Below, one piece after another: positions 15,001 through 43,421 of a stretch of DNA of 64,000 nt (within the stretch, counting starts at the first letter, position 1; every line of letters begins with the position of its first letter). The notes under the pieces are model-generated. The model saw only the letters and a program-made list of their open reading frames with translations. It searched no databases and was not told where the DNA came from. Source of the stretch: Clostridiisalibacter paucivorans DSM 22131 (GTDB lineage Bacteria; Bacillota; Clostridia; Tissierellales; Clostridiisalibacteraceae). The DNA is taken from NCBI RefSeq assembly GCF_000620125.1, contig NZ_JHVL01000010.1, positions 12,936 through 76,935 on the forward strand, given 5' to 3'. Position numbers and translations under genes: made by a program.

Positions 15001-16353
15001 TTACCACCCTTTAGTGATTTTAAATACCTCTTCACCTATCTGCCCATTTAAATATTCATTTATAGATTTTTCTACTATGTCCAATGCTTTATCCACTTGT
15101 TCCTTTGTTATAACTATTGGAGGCTGTACTCTTAACACCGACTGTCCTATGAATATGAGTATTAGTCCCCTTTCGATACATCTATAACATATCTTTGCAG
15201 CTGCTTCATAATTTTTCTCCATAGTATTCCTGTTTTTTACCAAATCTACAGCTATGGACATTCCTACTCCTCTTACATCACCAATAATTTCATATTTTTC
15301 TTTAAGTTCTAAAAATCTATTTTTGATGTATTCTCCCATTTCATACGCCCTAGTATTTAAATCTTCTCTCTCAAAAATTTCAATCATCTTTAAAGCAGCA
15401 GCACAAACAGTAGAATTGCCTGTCATAGAAAACAGATGCCCAGGTGCATCCAAGCTATCCATTATATCTGATTTTCCTATTACAATTCCAAGAGGAAGAC
15501 CTCCTCCTATAGATTTACCTAGTACTATAAGATCTGGCTCTATATCAAAATGTTCAATCCCAAACCATTTCCCAGTTCTTCCAACTCCCTGTTGTATTTC
15601 ATCAGATATAAATAATATCCCATTCTTTTTACATAATTCATGCAATGCTTTCATATATCTCTTAGGAGGAACTATCAGCCCAGCATCTCCAGCTATAGGT
15701 TCTATAAAAACAGCTGCCACTTCTTCTGCTGGTAAATAATAATTAAACGCATACTCTATATCTTTAAGACACTCCTTTTTACAACTTTTCTCTTTTTTGC
15801 CATATCTACATCTAATACAATTTGGATAGTTGAAATGGTATACTTCAGGAAGTAAAGGGCCGATATTTTTCCTCATATTTGTATTTATTGCAGATATAGA
15901 TAAGGCCCCATATGTGCTCCCATGATATGATTCACAAAACGATATTATCTTACTTCTACCTGTATATGCTCTTGCCAATTTAATAGCACCGTCTATTGAC
16001 GCAGACCCTGTAGTACTAAACATTACCTTCTTATTATCATCACCCGGTGCCACACTTATTAGTTTTCTTGCAAGTTCAACTGGTTCTCTGGCATAAAAAT
16101 ACGCCAATGTATATTGAGCTAGATTTTCCATCTGTTCCTTTACCACTTTTGCTATCTCTTTATTTCCATGTCCTATATTTGCTGAAGATGCACTAGATAG
16201 AAAGTCTATATATTCCCTATTTTCATAATCGTATAACAATGCTCCCTTTCCTTTTTGAAAAGCCACAGGATAATAGGGTATCTTCTGACTATTGGATACA
16301 TACTTCTTTTCTTTAGAAGCAATAATATGATTCTGATTTACATTCTTTAACAT
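15001..16353 (-). CDS. Class III PLP-dependent aminotransferase with Cys4 insertion
   Basis: 450 residues, fold type I, class III (GabT/ArgD/ornithine aminotransferase group). The PLP-binding Lys is K280 in LIVLGKSIGGGLPLG, with Asp251 in FISDEIQQGVGRTG. The region MFSTTGSASIDGAIKLAR (111-128) binds the cofactor phosphate. A short insertion has four cysteines spaced C179-X2-C182-X8-C191-X3-C195, which looks like a metal or structural knuckle and is known from some omega-aminotransferase subgroups. GGAGG lies 11 nt before ATG 16353. It is first in a probable operon with the YkvI-like transporter, behind a sigma-54 promoter and two dyad enhancer candidates, next to a sigma-54 activator. It likely degrades an amino acid or polyamine (gamma-aminobutyrate or similar); substrate not determined. 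Confidence 0.85.
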   Translation of the reverse strand: MLKNVNQNHIIASKEKKYVSNSQKIPYYPVAFQKGKGALLYDYENREYIDFLSSASSANIGHGNKEIAKVVKEQMENLAQYTLAYFYAREPVELARKLISVAPGDDNKKVMFSTTGSASIDGAIKLARAYTGRSKIISFCESYHGSTYGALSISAINTNMRKNIGPLLPEVYHFNYPNCIRCRYGKKEKSCKKECLKDIEYAFNYYLPAEEVAAVFIEPIAGDAGLIVPPKRYMKALHELCKKNGILFISDEIQQGVGRTGKWFGIEHFDIEPDLIVLGKSIGGGLPLGIVIGKSDIMDSLDAPGHLFSMTGNSTVCAAALKMIEIFEREDLNTRAYEMGEYIKNRFLELKEKYEIIGDVRGVGMSIAVDLVKNRNTMEKNYEAAAKICYRCIERGLILIFIGQSVLRVQPPIVITKEQVDKALDIVEKSINEYLNGQIGEEVFKITKGW

Positions 16354-16473
16354 AATTATTAAACCTCCTCAACACACTGGAATTTAAACTTATTTTTATT
16401 GACCCTTTAATCTACACCCATAGCATCATCCCTTTCTTTTATAAACTTGTTAATAGATTCTACATATAATAGT

Positions 16474-16489
16474 AGCAATTTACATACCA
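16474..16489 (-). promoter_or_regulatory. Sigma-54 (-24/-12) promoter of the aminotransferase operon
   Basis: The minus strand reads TGGTATGTAAATTGCT from 16489 to 16474. The GG and GC pairs have the exact -24/-12 spacing, and TGG...TTGCT fits the RpoN consensus TGGCACGNNNNTTGCW at all but two assigned positions. Transcription should start near 16462, about 110 nt before the aminotransferase ATG. The adjacent AAA+ activator supports the call. Confidence 0.85.
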
Positions 16490-16565
16490 AAAATAATCAA
16501 AGCATAATATTAGCTACATGCAGCCATTTTACAGGATTAACTATATCCAATACACAAAAAAAGAC

Positions 16566-16599
16566 TGTAAAGAATGTAAAATGATTTACACTCTTCACA
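16566..16599. promoter_or_regulatory. Enhancer dyad I (TGTAAA-N4-TTTACA core)
   Basis: Imperfect 34-bp palindrome with the perfect core TGTAAAATGATTTACA (16575-16590) and outer arms TGTAAAGA / TCTTCACA. It is centred about 120 bp upstream of the predicted sigma-54 start, the usual place for an activator binding site. The sequence resembles dyad II, 87 bp further upstream. Binding by the adjacent regulator is inference. Confidence 0.7.
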
Positions 16600-16653
16600 G
16601 CCTAATATTACTTATTATCCTTATCAATCTAGATATTCTAACCAAATCTTTAT

Positions 16654-16685
16654 ATGTAAACCCTTTACATGTAAAGGATTTACAT
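16654..16685. promoter_or_regulatory. Enhancer dyad II (double TGTAAA/TTTACA palindrome)
   Basis: A 32-bp palindrome with one non-matching pair of positions: ATGTAAACCCTTTACA followed directly by TGTAAAGGATTTACAT. It contains two overlapping TGTAAA-N3-TTTACA half-palindromes, is centred about 207 bp upstream of the predicted start, and abuts the TAA stop of the regulator gene at 16685-16687. It could also fold in the regulator mRNA. The rest of the 330-nt gap 16354-16684 holds dyad I, the sigma-54 promoter and the leader, and no gene. Confidence 0.7.
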
Positions 16686-18391
16686 TATTTCACATCATAT
16701 TTTTTAAGCATTTTATATAATGTAGGCCTTGAAATGCCCAATGCCTCTGCTGTTTTCTTTTTATTTCCCCCCATTTTTGACATCATATCCGTTAATATTT
16801 TTTTATCTATTTTTATAATGTTTCTTTTTATTATTTCGTCATATCCCTGTGCCTGCATTCCAGCATCATATAAAGTCTTCTCTGTTATCTTATTTCCCTC
16901 ACATAAAAAAATAATCCTTGATATTAAATTTTCAAGTTCTCTTACATTTCCAGGCCATGAATAATTCAATAGGATTTCTATAGCACTATCTTCAATATCC
17001 ATAGCCCTTTTGCCTGATTTTTTACTTATTTTTTCTATAAAATACCTAGCTAAAAGTATTATATCTTCTTTTCTCTCTCTAAGGGGAGATGCCACAATGC
17101 AAAGCACCTTAAGTCTATAATACAAATCCCTTCTAAATTTCCCCTCCTCTACAAGTCTTTCCAATTTTCTATTTGTTGCAGCTATTATTCTTACATCGAG
17201 CTTTACTTGACTATTACCACCTATTCTAGTTATACACATAGTTTCAAGTACTCTCAATAATTTAGCTTGAAGATGAATTTGCATTTCTCCTATCTCGTCA
17301 AGGAAAAGTGTGCCGCCACTTGCAAGTTCAAATTTCCCCTGTTTTCCACCTTTTCGAGCCCCTGTAAATGCACCCTCTTCATAACCAAATAACTCACTAT
17401 CTATAAGCTCATTGGGAAAATTGGCACAATTCAAGGCTATAAAAGGCCCTTTGCTTCTACTACTATAATTGTGTATAGACTGAGCTATTAGCTCTTTTCC
17501 TGTCCCACTTTCACCTAATATAAGAATTGTTTCATCACTCTTCGCAAATTTTTTTCCACGATCTATTAGCCTAAGCATTTGTATACTTTGACCTATTAAA
17601 TCATCAAATGTAAAGAATGCTCGATATCCTGCTATATTGTTGGCAAATCTTCTAGAACGCTCCATACTTCTAAATATATCTATCGCTCCAATCACCTTTC
17701 CATCATCAGAATACACTGGATATCCTGAATTTATAAAATGAAATTTCTTGCCATTGTATTTTATAAAATATTCAACATCTACTATGCTCTTTTTATTTTT
17801 TAATATCTCTAATAGCATCGGTTTTCCAATAGTAAGTTCTGACAGATGTTTTTTAAATAACTCCTGTTTATTAGTCTCTAATACCTTGAAACATGATTTA
17901 TTGGCATATTTCACATAGCCATCCTTGTCACAGTAAGAAATACTGTCATTTACATTATCTAAAGCCTTTAGTACCATCTCTCCATACCGAGAATACTTTT
18001 GAGATATCTTAAAAATATTCTTAATTATATTAGATACTTTATCTAATAGTTTATTTACATTGTCACTTATTTTTTCATTGTCAATAAAATTCAAAATACA
18101 AATACTTCTGCCTTCATCAATGACTTCTTTGCTATAAAAACATATGTTAGCATCCTTTTCATAATCATATATAATTTTCTTACCTTGATACTGATACATA
18201 TATGATTTGCTTTTGAAGTCATATACTAAAATAACATAGCCATCTTCAACATAAAGTACTAAAAGTCCAGAGCTTATATTCACTTGATCTATTGCAAAGT
18301 TAAAGCAATCCTTTAAAAGTTCATATTCCCTTTTATCATAAAGTTTATCTGTTGAAACAAAACATTTAGAGTAAGTAAACTTATCTTTCAT
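16685..18391 (-). CDS. Sigma-54-dependent transcriptional activator (PAS-AAA+-Fis HTH)
   Basis: 568 residues from ATG 18391, chosen because GGGGTGA lies 9 nt upstream; an open frame runs further back to 18496 but without a ribosome site. Residues 1-150 are an unassigned sensor region, about 165-275 a PAS domain, about 275-500 the AAA+ domain with Walker A GESGTGKE (about 292) and the sigma-54 contact loop GAFTGA (about 337), and the end is a Fis-type helix-turn-helix (GGNKKKTAEALGISRPTLYK). It activates RpoN-bound polymerase from distant sites. Its own stop codon touches enhancer dyad II, and the first gene downstream has a clear sigma-54 promoter, so the aminotransferase/YkvI operon is the obvious target. 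The signal sensed by PAS is unknown; an amino acid or peptide breakdown product would fit the neighbours. Confidence 0.92.
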   Translation of the reverse strand: MKDKFTYSKCFVSTDKLYDKREYELLKDCFNFAIDQVNISSGLLVLYVEDGYVILVYDFKSKSYMYQYQGKKIIYDYEKDANICFYSKEVIDEGRSICILNFIDNEKISDNVNKLLDKVSNIIKNIFKISQKYSRYGEMVLKALDNVNDSISYCDKDGYVKYANKSCFKVLETNKQELFKKHLSELTIGKPMLLEILKNKKSIVDVEYFIKYNGKKFHFINSGYPVYSDDGKVIGAIDIFRSMERSRRFANNIAGYRAFFTFDDLIGQSIQMLRLIDRGKKFAKSDETILILGESGTGKELIAQSIHNYSSRSKGPFIALNCANFPNELIDSELFGYEEGAFTGARKGGKQGKFELASGGTLFLDEIGEMQIHLQAKLLRVLETMCITRIGGNSQVKLDVRIIAATNRKLERLVEEGKFRRDLYYRLKVLCIVASPLRERKEDIILLARYFIEKISKKSGKRAMDIEDSAIEILLNYSWPGNVRELENLISRIIFLCEGNKITEKTLYDAGMQAQGYDEIIKRNIIKIDKKILTDMMSKMGGNKKKTAEALGISRPTLYKMLKKYDVK

Positions 18392-18517
18392 ATTGTTTAT
18401 CACCCCATCCATTTTAATCTTTATATTATTTAAACTTATTATTATGTATAATATAAAAAATTCAGTACAAAATAAAAGCCTTATGCTTTTGCACAAGACT
18501 TAATAATAAGATTTATT

Positions 18518-29429: not shown

Positions 29430-31439
29430 TTAAAATACCATTACAACTAATGCCACAATAAGCATTATAGCAAATATAAATATGGAATAAGTCAAACTAT
29501 TGAGATTGCCCCTTACCCTTAACATTATATCTGAAATAGAACTAACTTCATGTTCTACATATCCATTTATTTCATCTGTTTTAGAGGCCAATACTACAGC
29601 CTTTGAATTCATCCTTTGTTTAAATTGTTCTCTATGTTTCCCAGTACCTATCTCCATTTCACTAATCTTCTTCATAAAATCTGTTATACGTTTCACCACT
29701 GTTATTACCGCTTTATCTATTATATGAAACACCAATGAACTGGATTCAAATGTTATCTTTATTAAAGGTTTATATATATTTTTTTCTAAAGATGGCCATT
29801 TTAGAGATGGATTGACATATATCTTTTCTCCATTGTCCATCGCCTTCCATAGATATCTTTTTATAAATCCTATATATATGACTACTCCTAACAATGTGGT
29901 TATTATAGTCCCCTTTATTATTTCAAAACTATAAAAATGAGGAGTTATATCATGGGATACATCAAATAGTGGTAAAACACCCTTGAGCATATTAAATATT
30001 TTATATGGCCGTATACCAATATATATAATAACTATACTCAGTATTACCATTGGTAGTATTGCCCTCTTTTTTATATATTTTTTATATTGCCCAGTATATT
30101 TTTCATTTTGCTCTATGAATAAAGATACAAATATCTTCAAAAGATAAGCAACAGTAAATGCACTACTTATAGTAAAAATTACATTTGCAAATGTAAGCCA
30201 TGGATTATGATATATATGCATAGCCTCAATTAAAGCTTCATGAATCAAATTCTTACTTATGAATCCATTAAACCCAGGTATCCCTGTTATTGCAAACATG
30301 CCTACTATAAACAATAATCTAAGTCTTTTTTTATGTTTCCCAAATCCTCTGACTATATTTATACTTAAATCATGTAAAACCATATATACAATACCTGCAA
30401 TCAAAAATAATAGTACCTTAAACAGTGCATGATTTATAATATGATATAAGGTTCCATATACTGCAAAAGCCTTGTGATCCCCCAATATTCCCACTAAACC
30501 TATTCCTACAAATATATATCCTATTTGACTCATACTACTATAAGCCAATATACGTTTTACATTCCTCTGAAACATTGCTAAAAATCCACCTACAAACATA
30601 TTTATAAAGCCTAAAACAATTATTATAATAGAGAGTGTCATATCCGATTCCATCATTATATTTACTGTTATAATTATACCAAATACTCCTGCCTTTACTA
30701 ATATACCTGATAATATTGCACTGGCTGGTGTAGGTGCTGCTGGATGAGCCTTGGGCAACCATATATGCAAAGGAAACATCGCTGCTTTAACCCCAAAACC
30801 AATTATAAAAAAGACACTTACTAGATATCTTATATTCCCCAAACCTTCCATAGCCTTAGGCAACTGAGTTATGTTCAATGTAGCAGTATAGTCATACAAT
30901 ATGAATAATCCCAATAACAACACCAATCCACAGGCTACAGCCATGCTTAAATAAGATCTTCCTGCTTCATGGGCATATTTGTCTTCATCATGGATCACTA
31001 ATATATATGAAGTAAAGGACATAATCTCAAAGAAAGTAAATAGATTTAATAAATTCTCTGACAAAAAAATACCTATAGTACTTCCTAAAGTAAGCATAAA
31101 AAACGCATAATATCTATTTCTATTTTTATACCTTATTAAATACTGATTAGAGTATATGGATATTAAAAACCAGACAAATGATGTTATCCATACAAAGATA
31201 TATCTAAATACATCTAATTTTAAATACAGTCCTATACCCATTATATCTGGTATAAATACATCTATACCTCCATGGGTTGCTTTATTAAAAAGCATTGATA
31301 CAAATACTAGTTCTATACCTGTAGATATAATATTTAATACATCTCTATAGTTTTCATTCTTTTTTCCTATTATATATCCCAAAAAAGCTGAAATAAATGG
31401 TAATAATAATATTAGCAATAAACAATTTTGATAATCCAA
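29430..31439 (-). CDS. NuoL/MrpA-type proton-translocating antiporter subunit with C-terminal extension
   Basis: About 669 residues. NADH:quinone oxidoreductase subunit 5 / MrpA N-domain family: TM5 glutamate in FFEIMSFTSYILVIHDE and the TM7-8 block AHPAAPTPASAILSGILVKAG, expected to carry protons or sodium. The last ~160 residues leave the antiporter core: a hydrophilic, helix-forming stretch (KRITDFMKKISEMEIGTGK) and a final membrane helix (FIFAIMLIVALVVMV), which recalls the lateral helix plus last TM of NuoL. A TTG start at 31439 fits the ribosome site GAGGTGA better than GTG 31448. Last gene of the ten-gene Mrp operon. It lacks the MrpA C-terminal domains, which are separate small genes here. 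Confidence 0.85.
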   Translation of the reverse strand: MDYQNCLLLILLLPFISAFLGYIIGKKNENYRDVLNIISTGIELVFVSMLFNKATHGGIDVFIPDIMGIGLYLKLDVFRYIFVWITSFVWFLISIYSNQYLIRYKNRNRYYAFFMLTLGSTIGIFLSENLLNLFTFFEIMSFTSYILVIHDEDKYAHEAGRSYLSMAVACGLVLLLGLFILYDYTATLNITQLPKAMEGLGNIRYLVSVFFIIGFGVKAAMFPLHIWLPKAHPAAPTPASAILSGILVKAGVFGIIITVNIMMESDMTLSIIIIVLGFINMFVGGFLAMFQRNVKRILAYSSMSQIGYIFVGIGLVGILGDHKAFAVYGTLYHIINHALFKVLLFLIAGIVYMVLHDLSINIVRGFGKHKKRLRLLFIVGMFAITGIPGFNGFISKNLIHEALIEAMHIYHNPWLTFANVIFTISSAFTVAYLLKIFVSLFIEQNEKYTGQYKKYIKKRAILPMVILSIVIIYIGIRPYKIFNMLKGVLPLFDVSHDITPHFYSFEIIKGTIITTLLGVVIYIGFIKRYLWKAMDNGEKIYVNPSLKWPSLEKNIYKPLIKITFESSSLVFHIIDKAVITVVKRITDFMKKISEMEIGTGKHREQFKQRMNSKAVVLASKTDEINGYVEHEVSSISDIMLRVRGNLNSLTYSIFIFAIMLIVALVVMVF

Positions 31440-31461
31440 AAGCCTCACCTCTTTTTTATAT

Positions 31462-32919
31462 CTATATAAGGGCTCTAGCTATATCCTGTATATAGTGCAG
31501 TACAGCATTAGGGAATAGCCCCAAAATAATTACTATAAATGTAAGAGCTACTATAGGTCCTAACATCTTTATATTTGGATCTTTGTTTTCATATTGGATA
31601 TCTGGATCTGAACCAGAGAAAAATGCCGTAACAACTATGGGCACTAAATAAGCTGCAGTTAAAAAGGCACTCAATAATAGTATTACTGGAAACATAACTC
31701 TATTGGCATTTAGTCCACCCAATGCTAGATACCATTTGCTAACAAAACCATTGGTAGGTGGTATCCCCACTAGAGAGATAGATGCTATAGAAAAACAAAT
31801 CATAGTTATTGGCATTTCCCTTCCTATACCCTTTATTTCTTTTATACTTTTCTTTCCAGTCTTAAAATATATTGCCCCTGCACAGAAAAATAATGTTATC
31901 TTTATTACAGCATGATTTATAAGATGTAATAATCCCCCCACCAAACCATTTTCATTCAATAGTAATATACCTAGCAATATATATCCCAATTGACTTATTG
32001 TAGAATATGCCAATCTTTTTTTCAGATTATCTTGATGCAATGCTAGCAATGACCCCATAAGTATAGTTATTATAACCAATATCAAAATGTATATATCTCC
32101 ATCTATCTTCTGTATTATATCTACTCCAAATATAAAATAAGTAACTCTAATAAGGGCGAATATTCCCGATTTAACCACTGCCACAGCATGTAATAAAGAG
32201 CTTACTGGAGTAGGTGCTACCATTGCGGCAGGTAACCAAGAATGAAAGGGTACCAATGCAGCCTTCACTCCAAACCCTAAAAATAATGATATAAACACAA
32301 TAAGCAGAAGACTATATTCATTACTAGATATGTTATTAAGTATTCCCTGAGGTATAAAGCTTAAATCGTTGGCTATATAAAAAAGTAAAATCATGCCAAA
32401 GATAACCAATGTCGCTCCTCCGAAGGAATATATTAAATATTTTTTACCACTATCCAATGCCTCCTTAGAGCCTGCATGAATAACCATTGGAAATGTGGCC
32501 AATGTAAGAAACTCATAAAAAATATATAAAGTTATAAGATTGCCAGCAAAAGCTATACCTATGGTTATAGCTAATGTAATAGTGAAAAAAATAAAAAATT
32601 GCTTTTCCTTTCCCTCATGCTCCATATACTTTGAAGAATAAAATGTAGTAAATACCCAAAGTATCGATGCCAATGTTGAAAACATTATGCCCAATTTATC
32701 TATTTTAAAATATATATCCAAAAAGCTATTAAATTTAAAAATATGTATCTGAGTTTCTCCCTTTACATATAATACTGCTGTTAGCAATATTAGATTTATT
32801 ATTACTGAAGATATTACGAATATATTCCTTGCATTTTCTCTTTTGGGACTTATTGTAACCATAAAAATCGCTGCCAACACTGGAAATAATACTGGAATCA
32901 ATATTATATAATCAGTCAT
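31462..32919 (-). CDS. MrpD-like antiporter subunit (second copy)
   Basis: 485 residues, proton-translocating antiporter family (PF00361). TM5 glutamate in YIFYEFLTLATFPMVIH and the block AAMVAPTPVSSLLHAVAVVKSG with the conserved lysine. About 14 helices. It lies 15 nt after the preceding antiporter subunit and 13 nt before the next, so the operon encodes three such subunits in a row. Which of them are MrpA-, MrpD- or NuoN-like in function is not settled by sequence reading; this one is closest in feel to MrpD/NuoM. Membrane part of a multi-subunit cation/proton antiporter. Confidence 0.87.
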   Translation of the reverse strand: MTDYIILIPVLFPVLAAIFMVTISPKRENARNIFVISSVIINLILLTAVLYVKGETQIHIFKFNSFLDIYFKIDKLGIMFSTLASILWVFTTFYSSKYMEHEGKEKQFFIFFTITLAITIGIAFAGNLITLYIFYEFLTLATFPMVIHAGSKEALDSGKKYLIYSFGGATLVIFGMILLFYIANDLSFIPQGILNNISSNEYSLLLIVFISLFLGFGVKAALVPFHSWLPAAMVAPTPVSSLLHAVAVVKSGIFALIRVTYFIFGVDIIQKIDGDIYILILVIITILMGSLLALHQDNLKKRLAYSTISQLGYILLGILLLNENGLVGGLLHLINHAVIKITLFFCAGAIYFKTGKKSIKEIKGIGREMPITMICFSIASISLVGIPPTNGFVSKWYLALGGLNANRVMFPVILLLSAFLTAAYLVPIVVTAFFSGSDPDIQYENKDPNIKMLGPIVALTFIVIILGLFPNAVLHYIQDIARALI

Positions 32920-32933
32920 AACTACACCGTCCT

Positions 32934-34418
32934 CTATCCTTTAATTCCTGTCATTATAATACCTATTATTTCTTTAGACATAATACCTACTATTATCATA
33001 CTGGCTGTTAACAATAATACAGGCAATAACTCTTTTATAGGCTTATTTTTACCTTTATATATTTTGCCCTTTAGATTTTCTTCTCCAAAATATCCATTAA
33101 TAACTACAGGAAAATAATAAATAGCATTTAATAAACTACTTAAAAGCACCACTCCTAAATAGACTATTTTACCACTTTCTATACTGGCCAAAGATAAATA
33201 CCATTTACTAATAAATCCTGGCAATACTGGTATCCCTACCATGGATAATGCCCCTAAAGTAAATATAGCCAATGTTACAGGCATTTCTTTTCCTATGCCT
33301 TTCAAATCATCTAGTTTTTTCTTTCCTGTCTGTTCTATCATAGACCCTACTGATAAGAATAGAGAAGATTTAGTTACAGCATGACCTATAATATGAAAAT
33401 ATGCTATGCCCAATCCCAATTCATTGCCTAGCCCTATACCATAAAATATATATCCCATCTGTGCCACACTAGAATATGCAATAACTCTCTTTATATCTTT
33501 TTGTAATATAGCCAATACTGAGCCCACTATCATGCCAAGACTACCTAATATTAGTATTAATTTAAGTATGGGGAATACACTAACTATCTCAAACCCAAAC
33601 ATCCTATATAATATTTTAATCAAAAATAATACAAATGCCTTTAAGACAAGAGCAGACAATAATGCACTAGATGTGGATGGAGCACTGGAATGAGCATCGG
33701 GAAGCCAGACGTGTAACGGAAACATTGCGCTCTTAACTCCAAGACCAATAGTAAATAATCCCATAGTTATCAAAATAGTCTTTTGATATGATTCATATAC
33801 ATTTATTATCTCTTTATGAACAAATGTCATATTCAAATTACCAGTTATAGAATAAATAAATGCTATACCCATCAGTACAAGACCTGAACCTAAGCTACCT
33901 AGTACTAGATATTTTAATGTTGCCTTTATATTTTCTTTTTTATCCTTTACTACTATAATTCCACATGAAGCCAATGTGCTTACTTCTACAAATACAAATC
34001 CATTAAATAAATCATTTGTATAGGCAATCCCCAATAGTGACCCTATTAATATATTTATCAATAAATAGTATAGAGGTATTCTATTATCTTTAATATCTTT
34101 TTCAGCACTATATATTGAATACCACAATATCAATGTAGCTACTCCAGTAAATAATATAGACATTATTCCTTCTATGATTCCTATCTGAAATTCAATACCC
34201 CAAGGAGCATCCCAATGTCCTACCCTATAAAAGAAGCTACCATTGGTCCTTACATATACATAAGTTAGTACAGACAATATCATTGATATGATCATCGAAA
34301 CTATACTTAGTCCTTTAACAATCTTTTTATTTTTTATTATAGGCATAGTAAAAGAAGTAATAAATAGCATCAAAATAATTATTAACGGAAAATTCTTGAA
34401 AAATTCTATGTTAATCAC
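32934..34418 (-). CDS. mrpD: MrpD antiporter subunit (first copy)
   Basis: 494 residues, PF00361 family. Motifs FVFVEVSTLASCGIIVVKD (TM5 Glu) and DAHSSAPSTSSALLSALVLK (TM7-8 region with Lys). It immediately follows mrpC, as mrpD does in canonical mrp operons, with an 8-bp overlap: GTG 34418 is within the mrpC end, so translation is probably coupled. The product forms the proton/sodium path with the other large subunits. Confidence 0.87.
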   Translation of the reverse strand: MINIEFFKNFPLIIILMLFITSFTMPIIKNKKIVKGLSIVSMIISMILSVLTYVYVRTNGSFFYRVGHWDAPWGIEFQIGIIEGIMSILFTGVATLILWYSIYSAEKDIKDNRIPLYYLLINILIGSLLGIAYTNDLFNGFVFVEVSTLASCGIIVVKDKKENIKATLKYLVLGSLGSGLVLMGIAFIYSITGNLNMTFVHKEIINVYESYQKTILITMGLFTIGLGVKSAMFPLHVWLPDAHSSAPSTSSALLSALVLKAFVLFLIKILYRMFGFEIVSVFPILKLILILGSLGMIVGSVLAILQKDIKRVIAYSSVAQMGYIFYGIGLGNELGLGIAYFHIIGHAVTKSSLFLSVGSMIEQTGKKKLDDLKGIGKEMPVTLAIFTLGALSMVGIPVLPGFISKWYLSLASIESGKIVYLGVVLLSSLLNAIYYFPVVINGYFGEENLKGKIYKGKNKPIKELLPVLLLTASMIIVGIMSKEIIGIIMTGIKG

Positions 34419-34779
34419 TCCTCATCTTCATTATTTCGTTTAATTCTATAGTTCCATATTTTTCATATAATCTAATAGTAAGAGCCAACGCAAAGGCCGT
34501 TATACTCACTGCTACTACTATTCCTGTAAGCATTAATGCTGTAGGCACTGGATTTATATATGCATCAACTCCCTTGTGCGCCCCTCTTATAATGGGTGCC
34601 TCTCTTCCAGCTATATATCCCTTAGCAATAAAGAATAAGAATACAGCGGTATCCATTATATTCATTCCAATAATTTTTTTTATTAAATTATTATGCATAA
34701 GTAAAGTAGCAAAACCTACTCCAAATAAGATTATAGACCCTGTCTCTAAATAATTAGTAATCAATCCTTCCATGTACAT
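34411..34779 (-). CDS. mrpC: MrpC antiporter subunit (NuoK-like)
   Basis: 122 residues, three helices, NuoK/MrpC family: GVGFATLLMHNNLIKKIIGM and INPVPTALMLTGIVVAVSIT are characteristic. The end is a charged tail (RLYEKYGTIELNEIMKMR). Two ATGs are possible; the second (34773) has better spacing from GAGAGGG. It lies between mrpB and mrpD, the usual order. Confidence 0.9.
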   Translation of the reverse strand: MYMEGLITNYLETGSIILFGVGFATLLMHNNLIKKIIGMNIMDTAVFLFFIAKGYIAGREAPIIRGAHKGVDAYINPVPTALMLTGIVVAVSITAFALALTIRLYEKYGTIELNEIMKMRSD

Positions 34780-34787
34780 TACCCTCT

Positions 34788-35207
34788 CTATATATGTCCT
34801 TCATAAAATAAACTGAAAAAGAAATAAACTGTAACAGATACTATAGCTCCTACACATATATTAAGTGGTAAAAGATACCCACCACTCAATATATTTCCTG
34901 CATTACCCAATGGCATAGAAAACCCCTCTATATGACTCCCCCCTGTAATAAAACTAAATCCCTTTAAAATCCCATATATTATCAATGCAAAGGACAATAT
35001 CTTAATAAGCCTATTATAGCTAAATTTCTTAGATGCCTTTTCACTTCCCATAACCAACCTATATAGTATTAAACTAGCTCCGATTATAGTTCCACCTGCA
35101 AATCCCCCTCCAGGAGATAAATGTCCATGAAATATCACATATATACCAAATACCTGAATAAAAGGTATTACAAGTTTTGTAACTTCCTTCAATATAACTG
35201 TATTCAT
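34788..35207 (-). CDS. mrpB: MrpB antiporter subunit
   Basis: 139 residues, MnhB/MrpB family, with the diagnostic GHLSPGGGFAGGTIIGASLI after a first helix that brings FIQVFGIYVIFHG. Four helices. AGGAGG precedes ATG 35207, which overlaps the stop of the MbhE-like gene by ATGA. In standard mrp operons this follows the MrpA C-terminal domain, and here it follows two small genes that correspond to that domain. Confidence 0.9.
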   Translation of the reverse strand: MNTVILKEVTKLVIPFIQVFGIYVIFHGHLSPGGGFAGGTIIGASLILYRLVMGSEKASKKFSYNRLIKILSFALIIYGILKGFSFITGGSHIEGFSMPLGNAGNILSGGYLLPLNICVGAIVSVTVYFFFSLFYEGHI

Positions 35208-35500
35208 TTTTTCCTCCTGTCCATTTCATCTTGATCCTTCTTCAAAACTACTAAGACTGTCATTGCACCAGTAAATAAAACCGTGGCCTCAACAAATGTG
35301 TCCAATGCTCTATAGTCTAATATTATGCCTGTTACAATATTTAACGCACCTGTTTCCTCTACACCTTTTTCAACATACCTATGTTCCACATAATTATCTG
35401 ATGGATTATGGGGTCTCCCAAATTTAGGGAGTTCATTTACTCCTACTAACAATATTACGATAATACCTATAGCTAAAAGTATAGATACTGCCTTTCTCAT
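35204..35500 (-). CDS. MbhE-like subunit (detached MrpA C-terminal piece)
   Basis: 98 residues, two helices. The motif GALNIVTGIILDYRALDTFVE matches the stretch at the end of MrpA and the MbhE subunit of membrane-bound hydrogenases (ValxxILxDFRGxDT type). In classical Mrp systems it is fused to MrpA; here it is free, as in archaeal and thermophile Mrp/Mbh operons. It overlaps both neighbours by four bases. Confidence 0.82.
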   Translation of the reverse strand: MRKAVSILLAIGIIVILLVGVNELPKFGRPHNPSDNYVEHRYVEKGVEETGALNIVTGIILDYRALDTFVEATVLFTGAMTVLVVLKKDQDEMDRRKK

Positions 35501-35742
35501 TTTCCGACCCCCTTAATCCTTTTCAATGTAAGCACAAATAGCAATGTTGTTATCCCTGCACCTACAGCTGCCTCTGTAATGGCTAAATCTGGTGCATTGA
35601 GCTGCTGCCATAATATTGCCATTATAAGACTATAAACCATAAACACAATAATACTACTTAACATATTCTTTAAAGCAGAAACTGCTATTGATGAGCCAAT
35701 AAGTATTAAAAGCATTACAATACTAAATATCTTCATTTTCAT
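35497..35742 (-). CDS. MbhD-like subunit (DUF4040)
   Basis: 81 residues (79 from ATG 35736, which has the better ribosome spacing), two or three helices: SSIIVFMVYSLIMAILWQQL and PDLAITEAAVGAGITTLLFV. The A-PDLAxTEAAVGAGI motif is typical of the MrpA/MbhD C-terminal domain. It separates mrpG from the MbhE-like gene and overlaps mrpG by 20 bp. Confidence 0.85.
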   Translation of the reverse strand: MKMKIFSIVMLLILIGSSIAVSALKNMLSSIIVFMVYSLIMAILWQQLNAPDLAITEAAVGAGITTLLFVLTLKRIKGVGK

Positions 35743-36031
35743 TCACTCCAAAGGATTTTTTTGTATTATATGCTGCCTTAGCTATTAGATGAGTTGCAGT
35801 GGGATTTGTCAACCATAGAAATAAAATTATCAACAAAAGCTTTAAACTTGAAAAATTAAATCCACTATATATAATAAGTGCCAATAAACATAAGAATGCC
35901 CCCAATGTATCACATTTTGCAGCACTATGTGCCCTAGTAAACAAATCTGGAAATCTCAAAAGACCTATTGTTCCAACGCAAAAGAAAAATAATCCTCCAC
36001 ATAACAATATAGTCATAATTAAAATTTTCAA
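35723..36031 (-). CDS. mrpG: MrpG antiporter subunit
   Basis: 102 residues, MnhG/MrpG family, three helices, with GTIGLLRFPDLFTRAHSAAK, the family signature, then TNPTATHLIAKAAY. TTG start at 36031 with GGAGG upstream; overlaps the end of mrpF by four bases. Confidence 0.92.
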   Translation of the reverse strand: MKILIMTILLCGGLFFFCVGTIGLLRFPDLFTRAHSAAKCDTLGAFLCLLALIIYSGFNFSSLKLLLIILFLWLTNPTATHLIAKAAYNTKKSFGVNENEDI

Positions 36032-36306
36032 TGGCTTTTTCCTCCACTTCTTTCAATAATATTTGATATAGCAATAGATGCTATGAAGCTAATAAGGGCA
36101 TATACTAAAACCACATCTATAAAATAAGTTTCCCTTAATATAAAGGACACTATGGAAATAATAACTATGGTCTTAGTTCCTATAACATTTATAGATATTA
36201 ATCTATCAGCAGGAGTAGGTCCCTTTACTGCCCTAATCATACATAAAATTACAGTTATCGATAAAAAAATAATTGCAAAAACAAATAATTTATATTCCAT
36301 ATTCAA
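36028..36306 (-). CDS. mrpF: MrpF antiporter subunit
   Basis: 92 residues, three helices, MrpF/PhaF family: KGPTPADRLISINVIGTKTI is the family signature (GPT-xxDR-xxxxN). ATG 36300 has GGAG nine bases upstream and is a better start than TTG 36306. Directly follows mrpE. Confidence 0.92.
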   Translation of the reverse strand: MNMEYKLFVFAIIFLSITVILCMIRAVKGPTPADRLISINVIGTKTIVIISIVSFILRETYFIDVVLVYALISFIASIAISNIIERSGGKSH

Positions 36307-36798
36307 TTACTCCTCTATTTTTAAAAGTATCTTCTCAAATTTAGAATTAACAACACTGTCAACGTATTCCCTTTCTAAACAATGTATAGTAAAAGTATCT
36401 CCCTGTAAAATTACTGTTAATGTTCCTGGAGTCAATGTTATAGAATTTGCTAAAACAGTTTTTGTAAAGTCTTTCTTCAGTCTAGTATCAAATTTAACTA
36501 TGGTAGGAGATATTTTCATCTTTGGACTCAATACTATTGCAGCCACATGAAAATTGGCCATTACTATTTCCTTTAATAAAGTAAAAATATATATAGTTAA
36601 ATAATACATTTTATGGTATATATTGTATACTTCTTTTCTTTTAGAAAACATATTATCTTTATTAAGTATATAAATTAATGCAATAATAAATAGTCCTATT
36701 CCTATCACTTCTAAAGTTAACTTTTCAGAAAGAATTATCCAAAATAAAAGTAACACTATTATTTGTCTCATTGTTCTTCTTTTAACAATTTCCAACAC
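36307..36798 (-). CDS. mrpE: MrpE antiporter subunit
   Basis: About 163 residues, MnhE/MrpE family: helices near the N-terminus (QIIVLLLFWIILSE), VANFHVAAIVLSPKM-like sequence and the GTLTVILQGDTFTIHCLE block near the C-terminus, as in the family. Start is uncertain: GTG 36798 lies six bases after AGAGGGG and is chosen over ATG 36804, which has no spacing, and over the frame extending to 36864. First gene of the operon, about 45 nt downstream of the sigma-54 promoter's predicted start. Confidence 0.85.
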   Translation of the reverse strand: MLEIVKRRTMRQIIVLLLFWIILSEKLTLEVIGIGLFIIALIYILNKDNMFSKRKEVYNIYHKMYYLTIYIFTLLKEIVMANFHVAAIVLSPKMKISPTIVKFDTRLKKDFTKTVLANSITLTPGTLTVILQGDTFTIHCLEREYVDSVVNSKFEKILLKIEE

Positions 36799-36856
36799 GC
36801 ACATCCCCTCTGTTTTAAATAATATAGTATATTTTTCTCCATCCAGATTATATAAT

Positions 36857-36872
36857 TGCAACAATTATACCA
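36857..36872 (-). promoter_or_regulatory. Sigma-54 (-24/-12) promoter of the mrp operon
   Basis: The minus strand reads TGGTATAATTGTTGCA from 36872 to 36857, with GG and GC at exact -24/-12 spacing. It shares TGGTAT-N5-TTGC with the aminotransferase promoter at 16474-16489. Predicted start near 36845. It overlaps the perfect palindrome TATAATTG-CAA-CAATTATA (36851-36869), which may be coincidence of an AT-rich promoter or a second regulator site. An AcoR-like sigma-54 activator is encoded just upstream. Confidence 0.82.
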
Positions 36873-36927
36873 ATGATAATTCTGAATATTTGAAATATAG
36901 TTCAGTTTTAGTAATAATCACAAATAA

Positions 36928-36988
36928 AAAAATAAAAAAAATATATAGGAAAAGACATACCTCCCATTGCATATCTTTTTCTATATAT
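36928..36988 (-). terminator. Rho-independent terminator of the AcoR-like regulator
   Basis: On the minus strand a stem of about 20 bp with few mismatches (outer arms ATATATAG/CTATATAT, 36941-36988; loop AATGGGAG) is followed by an 8-U run and more U. It separates the regulator transcript from the mrp promoter. Confidence 0.85.
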
Positions 36989-37034
36989 TTTGTTTCAATT
37001 TGATACATATTTATTATATTATTTTATTATTTGG

Positions 37035-37071
37035 TGTTTCATTATGGCACATGTGTATCATTTTAACACAT
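37035..37071. promoter_or_regulatory. Candidate enhancer dyads for the mrp sigma-54 promoter
   Basis: Two adjacent dyads with TGT/ACA ends: TGTTTCATTATGGCACA (37035-37051, imperfect) and ATGTGT-N9-ACACAT (37051-37071, overlapping the regulator stop codon). They lie about 190-220 bp upstream of the predicted start, like dyad II of the aminotransferase operon. Confidence 0.4.
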
Positions 37072-39055
37072 GGTCCAGTCCATACTTCCTTATTTTCCTG
37101 TAAAGTGTACTTCTTCCAATGCCTAGAATTTTCGATGCCATAGACATATTTCCTGATACTTCTTGTATAGTTTTTGCTATAGCACTCTTTTCTATCTCTT
37201 CTAAAGTTAATAATTTATCATATCCATTGGCATTTTCAACATGATTTACCTCTATCATATGTGTAGGTAGTTGTTCATACCTTAATACTTGATTATTTTC
37301 AGCTGTATTTATAACTAATTGCATTACATTCTGTAACTCTCTCACATTTCCTGGCCAATTATACTTTAGCATCCCTTGATAGAATCCATTATTTATACCC
37401 TTTATATTCTTTCCCATTCTCTTACTAAACTTTTTTAAGAAATAGTCTATGAATATCCTTATATCCTCTTTCCGTTCTGTTAAAGAAGGTATTTTTATAG
37501 GCATTACATTTAATCTATAATATAAATCCCTTCTAAAATTTCCTAGTTCAACCTCTTTTTTTAAATTCTTATGAGTGGCTGCAATTACTCTAACATCTAC
37601 TGGTACAACATCATGCCCTCCCACTCTTACCACTTCTTTAGTCTCTATAACCCTTAACAAATTTGCTTGAGTATCTAAAGGCATATCTCCTATCTCATCT
37701 AAAAAAATAGTTCCTCCATCGGCCAATTCAAACTTTCCAGGGTGCCCTCCCTTCTTTGCACCTGTGAAGGCTCCTTCCACATATCCAAATAATTCACTGG
37801 CAACTAACTCTCTAGGGATAGCTCCGCAGTTTAAAAACACAAATGGATTTCTTCTTCTATTGCTTTCATTGTGTATGGCTTGAGCAAACATTTCCTTGCC
37901 TGTTCCACTTTCACCCAATAATAAAATAGTAGCATTAGTTTTGGCTGATACCTTTGCCAATTTTATAGCTTGTTTAATCTGTTTACTTTCTCCTAATATG
38001 TCATCGAAAGTAAATCTAGCAACTGCACCTACAATCTTATTTACCAAATTATGCACTACTTTAGCTTCTTTAAATGTTATAACTATACCTTCTACCTTAT
38101 TGGATTCTATATCCTTTATAGGCGTAACATTTACTATACATGCTATCTTCCGTCCAGATTTACTTTTAAAATATATTTCTTCTTCTTCATATCCCCTACC
38201 TAATTCGATTCCTTTAAAGATTTTAGTACTATTTCTTTTATCCAATATATAATTTATATTTCTTCCTATTACTTCTTCTTCTTTTATATTTAAAAGATTC
38301 CTAGCAAAAAAATTTACCCTTTTTATTATACCTTTATTATCCATAGAAATAAGTCCTTCGGATATGGATTCCATAATGGCATGAAAATGCTTATTAGCCA
38401 TTCTAAGTTTTTTATTGGTTTTATCTAATTTAAGCTCATATTCTATAGCCTCTGCAGATGCTATAACCATTCCCAATGTATGGGGATGCACTTTATCATA
38501 AATTCCAGACATACTCAATACACCTATAGTTTTACCCTTTCCATCTTTTATGGGACATGCTGATGATGTCCAATTATGGTAAAGACTACAATAATGCTCT
38601 GCTGCTAATACTTGAATAGGTTGGCCAGTAACAAGAGCCGTACCTATTGCATTGGTACCTATTATATCTTCCGTTACATTACAACCTTTATGCATATTGA
38701 TATTGTCATGCTGTTCCAATAGCTTAGTATCTCCTCCAACTTGAAGTACATAGCCTTCTTTGTCTGTAAGTCTAACTATAAATCCAGTATTGCCTACAAT
38801 TTTATATAGACTTTCCATAAAAGGCTGGGCCATCTTCAATAAAAATTCAAACTTTTCATATCTTTTAGATAATTCCTTGTCTGTTAATTCTGTTTTTATA
38901 TTTGGTTTAAAGGCATTTACTCCCTTTTCTCTACACCTTAACCATGAATTGGCTATAGTATCTCCTACTATTTCCCTCTTTAATACACCTTCATTAATAA
39001 AGGCCTTCCTTGCCTGTAGAATTTTTTCATTCTTTTCTAGCAGGAATTTGTTGGG
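37058..39055 (-). CDS. AcoR-like sigma-54-dependent activator (GAF-PAS-AAA+-Fis HTH)
   Basis: 665 residues from ATG 39055, which has GGGGGAGG seven bases upstream; the frame is open to 39127 without a ribosome site. The N-terminus has the AcoR-family motif ANSWLRCREKGVN (about 36-48), then a GAF-like domain (about 60-190), a PAS domain (about 210-330), AAA+ with GESGTGKE (about 380) and the sigma-54 contact GAFTGA (about 427), and a Fis-type HTH (GNMSMASKILGIGRSTLYRK). Activates RpoN promoters in response to a small molecule or redox cue. The next gene downstream is mrpE with a sigma-54 promoter, making the antiporter operon the likely target. A terminator lies between the two genes. The start is preceded by a GGGCACAAAG dyad. 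It could act elsewhere too. Confidence 0.92.
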   Translation of the reverse strand, partial: PNKFLLEKNEKILQARKAFINEGVLKREIVGDTIANSWLRCREKGVNAFKPNIKTELTDKELSKRYEKFEFLLKMAQPFMESLYKIVGNTGFIVRLTDKEGYVLQVGGDTKLLEQHDNINMHKGCNVTEDIIGTNAIGTALVTGQPIQVLAAEHYCSLYHNWTSSACPIKDGKGKTIGVLSMSGIYDKVHPHTLGMVIASAEAIEYELKLDKTNKKLRMANKHFHAIMESISEGLISMDNKGIIKRVNFFARNLLNIKEEEVIGRNINYILDKRNSTKIFKGIELGRGYEEEEIYFKSKSGRKIACIVNVTPIKDIESNKVEGIVITFKEAKVVHNLVNKIVGAVARFTFDDILGESKQIKQAIKLAKVSAKTNATILLLGESGTGKEMFAQAIHNESNRRRNPFVFLNCGAIPRELVASELFGYVEGAFTGAKKGGHPGKFELADGGTIFLDEIGDMPLDTQANLLRVIETKEVVRVGGHDVVPVDVRVIAATHKNLKKEVELGNFRRDLYYRLNVMPIKIPSLTERKEDIRIFIDYFLKKFSKRMGKNIKGINNGFYQGMLKYNWPGNVRELQNVMQLVINTAENNQVLRYEQLPTHMIEVNHVENANGYDKLLTLEEIEKSAIAKTIQEVSGNMSMASKILGIGRSTLYRKIRKYGLDHVLK

Positions 39056-39095
39056 CATAAAATTCCTCCCCCATAATAATTTAAATTTAATATTT

Positions 39096-41152: not shown

Positions 41153-42049
41153 ATGTATTTTTTAACTTATAACTACAATAAAAAAACTGAACCAGGATTA
41201 ATGGACAATGATAAGAATAATATCATACCACTAAAAAACATTTTTAATAAATTAGATTTAGACTTTAATGGAGATTTGAATTCTCTAATAGACATTTTTA
41301 ACAAGGATTTATTTGAACAAATAAGTGAAATAATAAAAAATTGGGATGGAAAATTAATTCCATTGGATGATGTTAAACTATGTGCTCCTATACCTTACCC
41401 AAAGAAAAACTTAATATGTCTTGGGAAAAATTACTTAGACCATGCCAAAGAAACGATGGGGCTTAAAGGGTCAGAAGATAATATCCCAAAATATCCAATA
41501 TATTTTAATAAATCCGCTAACCCTGCCATAGGAGATGGGGACATTATTTTAAACCATAGAGATATAACTAATATGATAGATTATGAAGTAGAACTAGCAA
41601 TTGTTATAGGTAAAGATGGAATAAATATCCCAAAAGAGGATGCTGAAGATCATATATTTGGATACACTATAGTAAATGATATATCTGCAAGAAATATTCA
41701 GAGAAAACATGGACAGTGGTTCAAAGGAAAAAGTTTAGAAACCTTTTGTCCCATGGGCCCATTCTTGGTACACAAATCTCAAATTCCATTCCCAGTTGAG
41801 CTAAACCTAATTTGTAAAATAAATAGTGAAATAAGACAAGATTCCAATACTAAAAACCTTATTTTTGATATTCCCTATATAATAAGCGATTTATCTAAAG
41901 GCATGTATTTAAGAAAAGGAGATATTATCGCTACAGGTACACCTTCTGGCGTAGGTTTAGGATTTAAGCCCTTTAAGTTTTTAAAATCTGGTGATTTAAT
42001 AGAATGTACTATAGAAAAAATAGGTACCCTTAGTAATAAAATGGCTTAA
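41153..42049 (+). CDS. Fumarylacetoacetate hydrolase-family protein
   Basis: 298 residues. FAH-family C-C hydrolase/isomerase/acylpyruvase fold: LICLGKNYLDHAKE (about 96-109), metal ligands in IDYEVELAIVIG, VNDISARNIQRKHGQWFKGK, and GDIIATGTPSGVGLG near the end. It hydrolyses a beta-diketo acid such as an acylpyruvate, or a 2-oxo-hepta-diene-type acid; which is not clear. Start ATG 41153 follows GGAGGTAAAAAA; the frame is open earlier. One of three plus-strand genes; its 3' end overlaps the amidase 3' end by 20 bp on the opposite strand, so no terminator can lie between. Confidence 0.88.
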   Translation: MYFLTYNYNKKTEPGLMDNDKNNIIPLKNIFNKLDLDFNGDLNSLIDIFNKDLFEQISEIIKNWDGKLIPLDDVKLCAPIPYPKKNLICLGKNYLDHAKETMGLKGSEDNIPKYPIYFNKSANPAIGDGDIILNHRDITNMIDYEVELAIVIGKDGINIPKEDAEDHIFGYTIVNDISARNIQRKHGQWFKGKSLETFCPMGPFLVHKSQIPFPVELNLICKINSEIRQDSNTKNLIFDIPYIISDLSKGMYLRKGDIIATGTPSGVGLGFKPFKFLKSGDLIECTIEKIGTLSNKMA

Positions 42050-43421
42050 CCCATCCACCAAATATATCTTCTAATTTTTTGGCCACTGCAAAGGCTATAT
42101 CTTCTCTAAAATGTCGTGCAACTACCTGTATAGCTATGGGAAGTCCATCTGATGATGTGCCACATCTGACTGTCACTACGGGATTTCCAGTAAGATTAAA
42201 AGTCTTAGTATAGCTATACGCCCTCCTATTTTCCTTATTTGATGCCTCTCCATGCTTCATAGCTGGATATGCATTAACTGGACATAGTATTACATCATAA
42301 CTATCCATAAATATAGCCATATTGGCTCTAATTTTGTCCTTCATATATAATAATTCACTGAGTTCTTCAGCACTTATCCCTTTATTTTGAGTAAATGCCC
42401 ATTTCAATGATTGATGAATTTCTTTTGTATTATATTTATCTAAAATTTTTCTAACCCATTTTCCTCCATCAGAAGCAAAAATTTTACCATATACTCTATC
42501 TGTATACTCTATATAAGATGGTAAATCCTGATCTACACTGCTAACTATATTCTTTAGTACCATAGCCCCTTCTTTTATAACATCAATAGTGTCTTTTGAA
42601 GGTGTCAATATCCCATTATCTATAAAATATGCGATCCTAAGGGTGCTTAAATCTACATCCCTACTATCATAAATGGGCATATTAACAACTGTTGAAGGAT
42701 CATTAGCATCATATCCTGACAATATAGGTAATAAATATTCTAAATCCTCTATATACTTGGCCATTGGACCTATTTGGGTCATGAAATCTAATACTCCACC
42801 AAAGGACACTATATGCCCCGCCCTAGAAATTCTCCCATAAGTAGGCTTTAATCCTGCTATCCCACAATTATGGGCTGGCAATCTTATGCTTCCTCCTGTA
42901 TCACTTCCTATCCCTAATATGGAACACCCCGACGCTATCATTGCAGCTTCTCCACCACTGCTCCCTCCAGAAGTCCTCTCTAAATCATAGGGATTATTAG
43001 TCCTTCCATATACAATATTATCCGTTTCAAATATAAGAGTTAACTCAGGAGTATTAGTTTTACCTAAAATCAATGCCCCTTGTTCTTTTAATCTTCTCAC
43101 TACCTCTGCATCTTTATCAGGTATATAGTCTTTTCTCCCTAATGTACCCGCTGTTGATACTATCCCACTGGTATCAAAAGAATCTTTTATTGTGACTGGA
43201 ATTCCATGCAATTTACCCAAATACTCACCTTTATTTAATCTTTCATCGGCTTTTTTTGCTTCTTTTAAAATGTCTTCATTTATTTGTACTAAACCATTTA
43301 AACTGGGATTAAAACTTTGAATTCTATCTAATATAATCTTAACCAATTGATATGAAGATATTTTTTTCTCTATTATGGCATTATATATCTCTTTAATGGG
43401 CAAGTCTAATATTTCTTTCAC
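42030..43421 (-). CDS. Amidase-signature family amidase
   Basis: 463 residues with the amidase signature catalytic triad: Lys in VTIKDSFDTSG (about 76), cis-Ser in SDTGGSIRLPA and nucleophile Ser context in RTSGGSSGGEAAMIA. Hydrolyses an aliphatic or aromatic amide. It looks like a stand-alone amidase rather than GatA: no gatB or gatC nearby. GTG start 43421 with AAGGAG eight bases upstream. The 5' neighbour is a small membrane-protein gene five bases away. Overlaps the convergent FAH gene at its 3' end. Confidence 0.88.
   Translation of the reverse strand: MKEILDLPIKEIYNAIIEKKISSYQLVKIILDRIQSFNPSLNGLVQINEDILKEAKKADERLNKGEYLGKLHGIPVTIKDSFDTSGIVSTAGTLGRKDYIPDKDAEVVRRLKEQGALILGKTNTPELTLIFETDNIVYGRTNNPYDLERTSGGSSGGEAAMIASGCSILGIGSDTGGSIRLPAHNCGIAGLKPTYGRISRAGHIVSFGGVLDFMTQIGPMAKYIEDLEYLLPILSGYDANDPSTVVNMPIYDSRDVDLSTLRIAYFIDNGILTPSKDTIDVIKEGAMVLKNIVSSVDQDLPSYIEYTDRVYGKIFASDGGKWVRKILDKYNTKEIHQSLKWAFTQNKGISAEELSELLYMKDKIRANMAIFMDSYDVILCPVNAYPAMKHGEASNKENRRAYSYTKTFNLTGNPVVTVRCGTSSDGLPIAIQVVARHFREDIAFAVAKKLEDIFGGWVKPFYY

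Follow-up and report, generated by a model that had tools for sequence, protein, structure and literature searches.

Research on Mrp antiporters has mostly treated them as salt and alkali systems; to our knowledge, little is recorded on what turns them on. A text search of a review of these antiporters (PMC5703873) returned no occurrence of sigma, promoter or regulator, and term searches of three sigma-54 papers (PMC12316311, PMC4641369, PMC3162934) returned no mention of Mrp or Mnh. The literature that we searched, an incomplete set, contained no report of Mrp/Mnh under sigma-54.

The closest described regulatory systems are the sigma-54 regulons of Clostridiales, for which 39 groups of enhancer-binding proteins (EBPs) have been catalogued, mostly with one target operon each (PMC6615313). 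These systems resemble the mrp locus described here in having the EBP beside its target, a TGT-N10-12-ACA upstream activator site (UAS) mostly 100–250 bp upstream, and the promoter consensus TTGGCATNNNNNTTGCT. They differ in that no listed group has an Mrp/Mnh target, the nearest case being OrdR, whose operon ends in nhaC, and in that the parts consulted do not mention the fixed triple-UAS spacing of the mrp locus. On the protein side, the closest regulators are the GAF-PAS activators of the DhaR/AcoR family, which share their domain order with the mrp EBP and, in the case of E. coli DhaR, also the modelled N-terminal fold; the latter falls in a separate clade and adjoins mrp rather than dha or aco genes.

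The operon itself has two kinds of described relative. Like other Mrp (CPA3) antiporters, it encodes subunits E, F, G, B, C and D plus the C-terminal parts of MrpA; unlike them, it has a split MrpA, three D/A-type antiporter subunits, and E-F-G in first position. Mbh and Mbs of Pyrococcus have a similar gene order, E-F-G-A'-A''-B-C-D, and provide the closest solved D subunits, but the operon described here has no hydrogenase or sulfane-reductase module, and its genome has no Complex1_49kDa gene.

Here, we analyse a stretch of 64,000 nucleotides of Clostridiisalibacter paucivorans DSM 22131 (the window) in which such an operon lies directly downstream of an EBP gene. Very probably, judging from sequence comparison, a sigma-54 promoter at 36857–36873 that belongs to the operon alone drives its transcription, and the dedicated GAF-PAS EBP encoded next to it acts as the activator. 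This would be a new EBP group beyond the 39 described for Clostridiales, distinguished by a target that was not expected and by a clearly defined candidate enhancer, and it would add both a group and a type of target to that list.

Probable promoter and candidate enhancer of the mrp operon

A sigma-54 promoter ahead of the mrp operon had been proposed in a first-pass annotation of this DNA, and we find the element in place. The 16-mer TGGTATAATTGTTGCA lies at 36857–36872 on the minus strand, with GG and GC at canonical spacing, and points toward mrpE, whose probable TTG start (36795) lies about 62 nt away. Extended to the 17-mer TTGGTATAATTGTTGCA (36857–36873), it matches the Clostridiales sigma-54 consensus (PMC6615313) at 10 of 12 defined positions. 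Position 36858 holds the C of the -12 GC; the predicted transcription start falls near 36846, leaving a predicted leader of ~50 nt. Pattern searches of the whole genome (3.25 Mb) return 40 sites for TGGYAT-N5-TTGC versus 1 for the reversed-pattern control, and the genome encodes RpoN (PF04552, E 5.8e-65), so that such a site before an operon is unlikely to be there by chance. The looser pattern TGGYA-N6-TTGCW, counted in the window only, shows mild enrichment (3 matches versus 0.66 expected, a count attained in 2 of 100 shuffles). Across 14 non-redundant orthologous loci, GG and TTGC are invariant and the 25 bases upstream are little conserved; the window promoter carries T where 12 of the 14 sites carry C. 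A perfect palindrome, TATAATTG-TTG-CAATTATA, overlaps the -12 element. We entertained a role for it as repressor operator and dropped the idea, since most orthologous promoters, inspected visually, do not retain it.

Several other sites of this kind were seen. The like site that had been noted before an aminotransferase is indeed there, as part of a second EBP/sigma-54 unit on the minus strand of the window (15001–18496), which comprises an EBP (16685–18496), the site TGGTATGTAAATTGCT at 16474–16489, and a class-III aminotransferase (15001–16353). The looser-pattern match TGGTAAAATTTTTGCT at 42474–42489 (minus strand) lies inside an amidase-like reading frame (42030–43421) and is probably a chance occurrence. 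At a further locus, L257 (G000:C38), another EBP (15826–17679 of the contig) with its own sigma-54 site, TTGGTATAATATTTGCA, precedes a 910-aa protein that looks molybdoenzyme-like, an annotation made by eye alone. The first nine bases of that site are identical to those of the mrp promoter.

Between the EBP gene and the mrp promoter lies an intrinsic-terminator-like hairpin with a U tract (36923–36993, minus strand; dG -21 kcal/mol, z -5.9). A simple terminator scanner did not report it. Most loci have terminator-like hairpins in the EBP–mrpE gap. If the hairpin acts as it appears to, transcription of the EBP gene would end there, before mrp, and the mrp operon would thus require a promoter of its own. 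The region is A+T-rich, and a vegetative (sigma-A) promoter could in principle be that promoter, with the -24/-12 match a chance or minor element; the usual treatment of Mrp operons as salt and alkali systems would fit such an arrangement. There is a weak sigma-A-like pair, TTGTGA-18-TATATT, at 36923–36894, and the -12 element is closely followed by a TATAAT. Sigma-A-like pairs are, however, not clearly above shuffle level here (6 versus a mean of 3.5, sd 2.0), and they are absent from 6 of the 7 orthologous EBP-linked upstream regions checked, while the -24/-12 element is kept wherever the EBP is present and, apart from one weak match, missing where the EBP is missing (see below). We therefore consider it very unlikely that a sigma-A promoter mainly drives mrp, although the weak pair and the TATAAT could be a source of basal mrp transcription.

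The sigma-54 reading also calls for activator sites some 100–250 bp upstream, as expected for a promoter served by an EBP, and candidates defined by sequence motif are present. The EBP–mrpE gaps have in common the motif TGTWYCA-N3-TGRWACA, a TGT-N11-ACA inverted repeat, usually in three copies whose centres are spaced by 19 and about 43–44 bp. Repeats of this class have been described for many Clostridial EBPs (PMC6615313). In the window, on the minus strand, the candidates are UAS1, TGTGTTAAAATGATACA (37054–37070), which overlaps the EBP stop codon; UAS2, TGTGCCATAATGAAACA (37035–37051); and UAS3, TGTATCAAATTGAAACA (36991–37007). Their centres lie 189, 170 and 126 bp upstream of the -24 element, respectively. 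Matches at 9 or more of the 10 core positions total 28 and occur in 13 of the 13 regions tested, versus 0.12 expected from shuffles, a comparison that is optimistic because the regions that served to derive the motif are also those in which matches were counted. The spacing of these candidate sites is more independent evidence. All three can be recognised in 11 loci. In these, 19 bp separate the two distal sites (18 in one), and the distance from the middle to the proximal site is 42–45 bp in 10 loci, the exception being L116 with 33. Across loci, the proximal site is 101–127 bp upstream of the -24 element. In L209, L275 and L276, the sites are looser or partly recognised. These features are consistent with a model in which EBP dimers bind three TGTWYCA-N3-TGRWACA sites ~125–190 bp upstream of the -24 element. 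In L210, L209, L211 and L204, candidate activator sites lie inside the terminator-like hairpins of the EBP–mrpE gap, so one palindrome may act there as both terminator and binding site.

Comparative survey of EBP-linked mrp loci

We looked for MrpE first in 60 relatives and afterwards more widely, in 249 genomes from the order and 391 from the class. These searches yielded 13 loci, that of the window included, with an EBP orthologue directly upstream and a -24/-12 site in every EBP–mrpE gap. A search of the phylum with the EBP added L275 and L276, in which the EBP is likewise adjacent to mrpE and the sites are CTGGCACAAAAATTGCG and TGGGCATAAAAATTGCA. In total, 15 loci from ten families of the phylum have an orthologous EBP directly before an mrp operon, and all 15 have a site with GG and TTGC at exact spacing between the two genes. 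One outcome had been named beforehand as grounds for giving up the promoter, namely that close relatives with the same gene order would have lost GG and GC; no such loss was seen. The proposed comparison of mrpE upstream regions gave the same picture when a fixed 400 nt was used: a site is found in 12 of 13 loci with the EBP versus 1 of 52 without it. That single match is weak (9/12) and 251 nt from mrpE, and the thirteenth EBP-linked site, in L188, is a 12/12 match that lies slightly beyond the 400-nt range. One caveat is that part of the conservation could come from common descent within close pairs.

In the mrpE tree, the EBP-linked operons are not all in one clade, and 5 changes are needed. 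Two operons without the EBP, L084 (G026) and L198 (G303), are nested within EBP-linked groups, and both are without a sigma-54 site and without UAS. The joint absence of EBP, promoter and UAS fits a loss of the whole switch at once, and these two appear to be natural loss cases, with the exact placement of L084 in the tree weakly supported. The sequence upstream of mrpE in L084 instead contains a TGTTATAAT-like element.

Among Clostridiales EBPs, some have several target operons or unlinked ones (PMC6615313), and it might be argued that the EBP described here likewise acts mainly on distant genes, its position beside mrp being incidental. We regard this as extremely improbable. All close EBP orthologues found adjoin mrpE, while the neighbours on both sides of the unit vary. 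In the class survey (391 genomes), 9 genomes have an EBP match at E<=1e-180, and all are EBP-mrp genomes; second-tier EBPs of the phylum (45–49% identity) precede acetoin/lipoyl, oxidoreductase-like and other genes, and none lies before mrp. A one-mismatch search of this genome finds a UAS cluster solely at the mrp locus, the other matches being isolated and none of them near a listed sigma-54 site; the idea of a wider regulon was set aside on these grounds. Confinement of the cluster to mrp in this genome suggests a single-target activator, and the EBP/sigma-54 switch on the mrp operon is apparently a dedicated one.

Two further lines were followed and dropped. A scan of contigs with the EBP returned mainly generic EBPs, and only L013 has distant Mrp-like antiporter genes. 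The variable flanking genes offered no functional clue, the one exception to their variability being a phosphoglucomutase, which is found close to the operon both here and in two related genomes. In L211 (7412–7970), ~380 nt separate the sigma-54 site from the called mrpE start, far more than elsewhere; this long gap may be a structured leader or reflect a mis-called start.

The activator and its sensor module

The gene directly upstream of mrp (37058–39058, minus strand) encodes a 666-aa protein with matches to GAF, PAS, Sigma54_activat and HTH_8. Domain searches and alignment show the features of an enhancer-binding protein, namely a Fis-type HTH and an AAA+ domain that contains Walker A and GAFTGA; all 15 orthologues have GAFTGA. 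The first-pass annotation had called this gene an AcoR-like activator, which fits its AcoR/DhaR-like architecture but not its place in a separate orthologous clade. The mrp EBPs are 52–69% identical to the window protein, as compared with at most about 44% over their length for the next paralogues in the same genomes, and they are monophyletic with support of 100/100 in a tree of 41 EBP rows. The window protein is not an orthologue of AcoR: it lies in this clade of its own and adjoins mrp, not acetoin genes. An AcoR-like paralogue in this genome (C82:47335; 43% identity) precedes aco-type genes. Nor does the protein qualify as DhaR under NCBIfam, whose DhaR equivalog is its top model but with 450 bits against a cut-off of 551.

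What signal the EBP responds to may be reflected in its N-terminal half. AlphaFold2, run on 15 aligned N-terminal segments, gives a GAF-PAS model with a mean pLDDT of 84, and the best solved match of the modelled residues 1–345 is E. coli DhaR(N). Two positions set the mrp EBPs apart from most other members of the DhaR/AcoR family. Arg96, which the model places on the first GAF strand, occurs without exception in the 15 mrp EBPs, whereas 24 of 26 related EBPs have V, I or L; Cys168 is found in 13 of 15, in place of what is mostly Ala. Both are candidate specificity residues, and the invariant Arg96 in particular is a lead toward the signal; we speculate that its ligand is anionic. Apart from Cys168, we saw no Cys/His set unique to the mrp EBP clade that would resemble a heme or Fe-S sensor in GAF-PAS.

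It is also possible that the signal is a protein. DhaR is controlled by protein partners, so such control may extend to the mrp EBP; in line with what holds for DhaR, DhaR-DhaK and DhaR-DhaL complexes are among the structure matches. By analogy with the family, a small molecule or protein acting on GAF/PAS would license assembly of the AAA+ hexamer and ATP hydrolysis, and the GAFTGA loop would then remodel the closed RNA polymerase–sigma-54 complex on the -24/-12 element, turning the operon on. In this way, mrp may be linked to metabolic or redox sensing, as the first-pass annotation had suggested.

The mrp operon and its product

The operon occupies 29430–36795 on the minus strand, in the order mrpE-F-G-A'-A''-B-C-D-D-D. 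mrpE (36307–36795) probably begins with TTG, with GTG at 36798 or ATG at 36804 as possible alternatives. It is followed by mrpF-like (36028–36306) and mrpG-like (35723–36031) genes, both in conserved positions in the compared operons. Family-library matches identify two C-terminal parts of MrpA, A' (DUF4040/MbhD-like; 35497–35742) and A'' (MbhE-like; 35204–35500), as well as mrpB (34788–35207) and mrpC (34411–34779). The first mrpD-type antiporter subunit (32934–34418) is supported by domain and structure matches, and the second (31462–32919) and a third antiporter-like subunit (672 aa, NuoL/HyfB-like; 29430–31448) by domain matches. MrpB to MrpG and MrpA domains thus occur together, as in Mrp (CPA3) gene sets, with F and G assigned by position and comparison only and MrpA in separate pieces.

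A different view of the product would keep the link between regulator and promoter but see in the Mrp module the portion that moves ions within a redox complex, such as a membrane-bound hydrogenase, the EBP then controlling an electron-transfer complex. The split MrpA is compatible with this view, and in both gene order and D subunit (best solved matches 6cfw_H and 6u8y_H) the likeness to Mbh/Mbs is at least as great as that to Bacillus-type Mrp. Against it, the operon contains no hydrogenase-type subunit, and no Complex1_49kDa-type subunit is found in this genome or in 10 other genomes with the EBP (11 of 14 in all). In G570, which has an EBP-linked Mrp, the Complex1_49kDa genes are not beside that copy but near two other, EBP-less ones. 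On balance, we think it unlikely that the module belongs to such a complex.

Rnf is common in Clostridia, and the presence of an RnfD/NqrB-type protein in 14 of 14 genomes with the EBP, this one included, is for that reason not specific evidence for function. The product is likely a stand-alone antiporter, working alongside Rnf and converting proton and sodium gradients into each other. As the last step of the proposed mechanism, this Mrp-type Na+/H+ antiporter would adjust the balance of protons and sodium that Rnf and fermentation establish.

A broader proposal can be offered tentatively, and we hold it with some doubt: that, in Clostridia and neighbouring classes alike, Na+/H+ exchange is coupled by a conserved, dedicated switch to a metabolite (perhaps anionic, given GAF Arg96), that Mrp serves there in on-demand energy metabolism with Rnf rather than as a housekeeping or salt/alkali system, and that the three-site enhancer makes the response switch-like. 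In its sequence, the circuit is complete, with sensor, three candidate sites, promoter and target in ten families, and it predicts an antiporter that stays silent in a number of anaerobes until one specific signal arrives. With this, one can directly test what cue controls the conversion of ion gradients in fermenters that have Rnf.

The two further mrpE-like genes of G570 (C1: 2001156–2009622 and 2543990–2552639), neither with an EBP, are each ~8 kb from a Complex1_49kDa-type gene; these two copies perhaps belong to Mbh/Mbs-like complexes.
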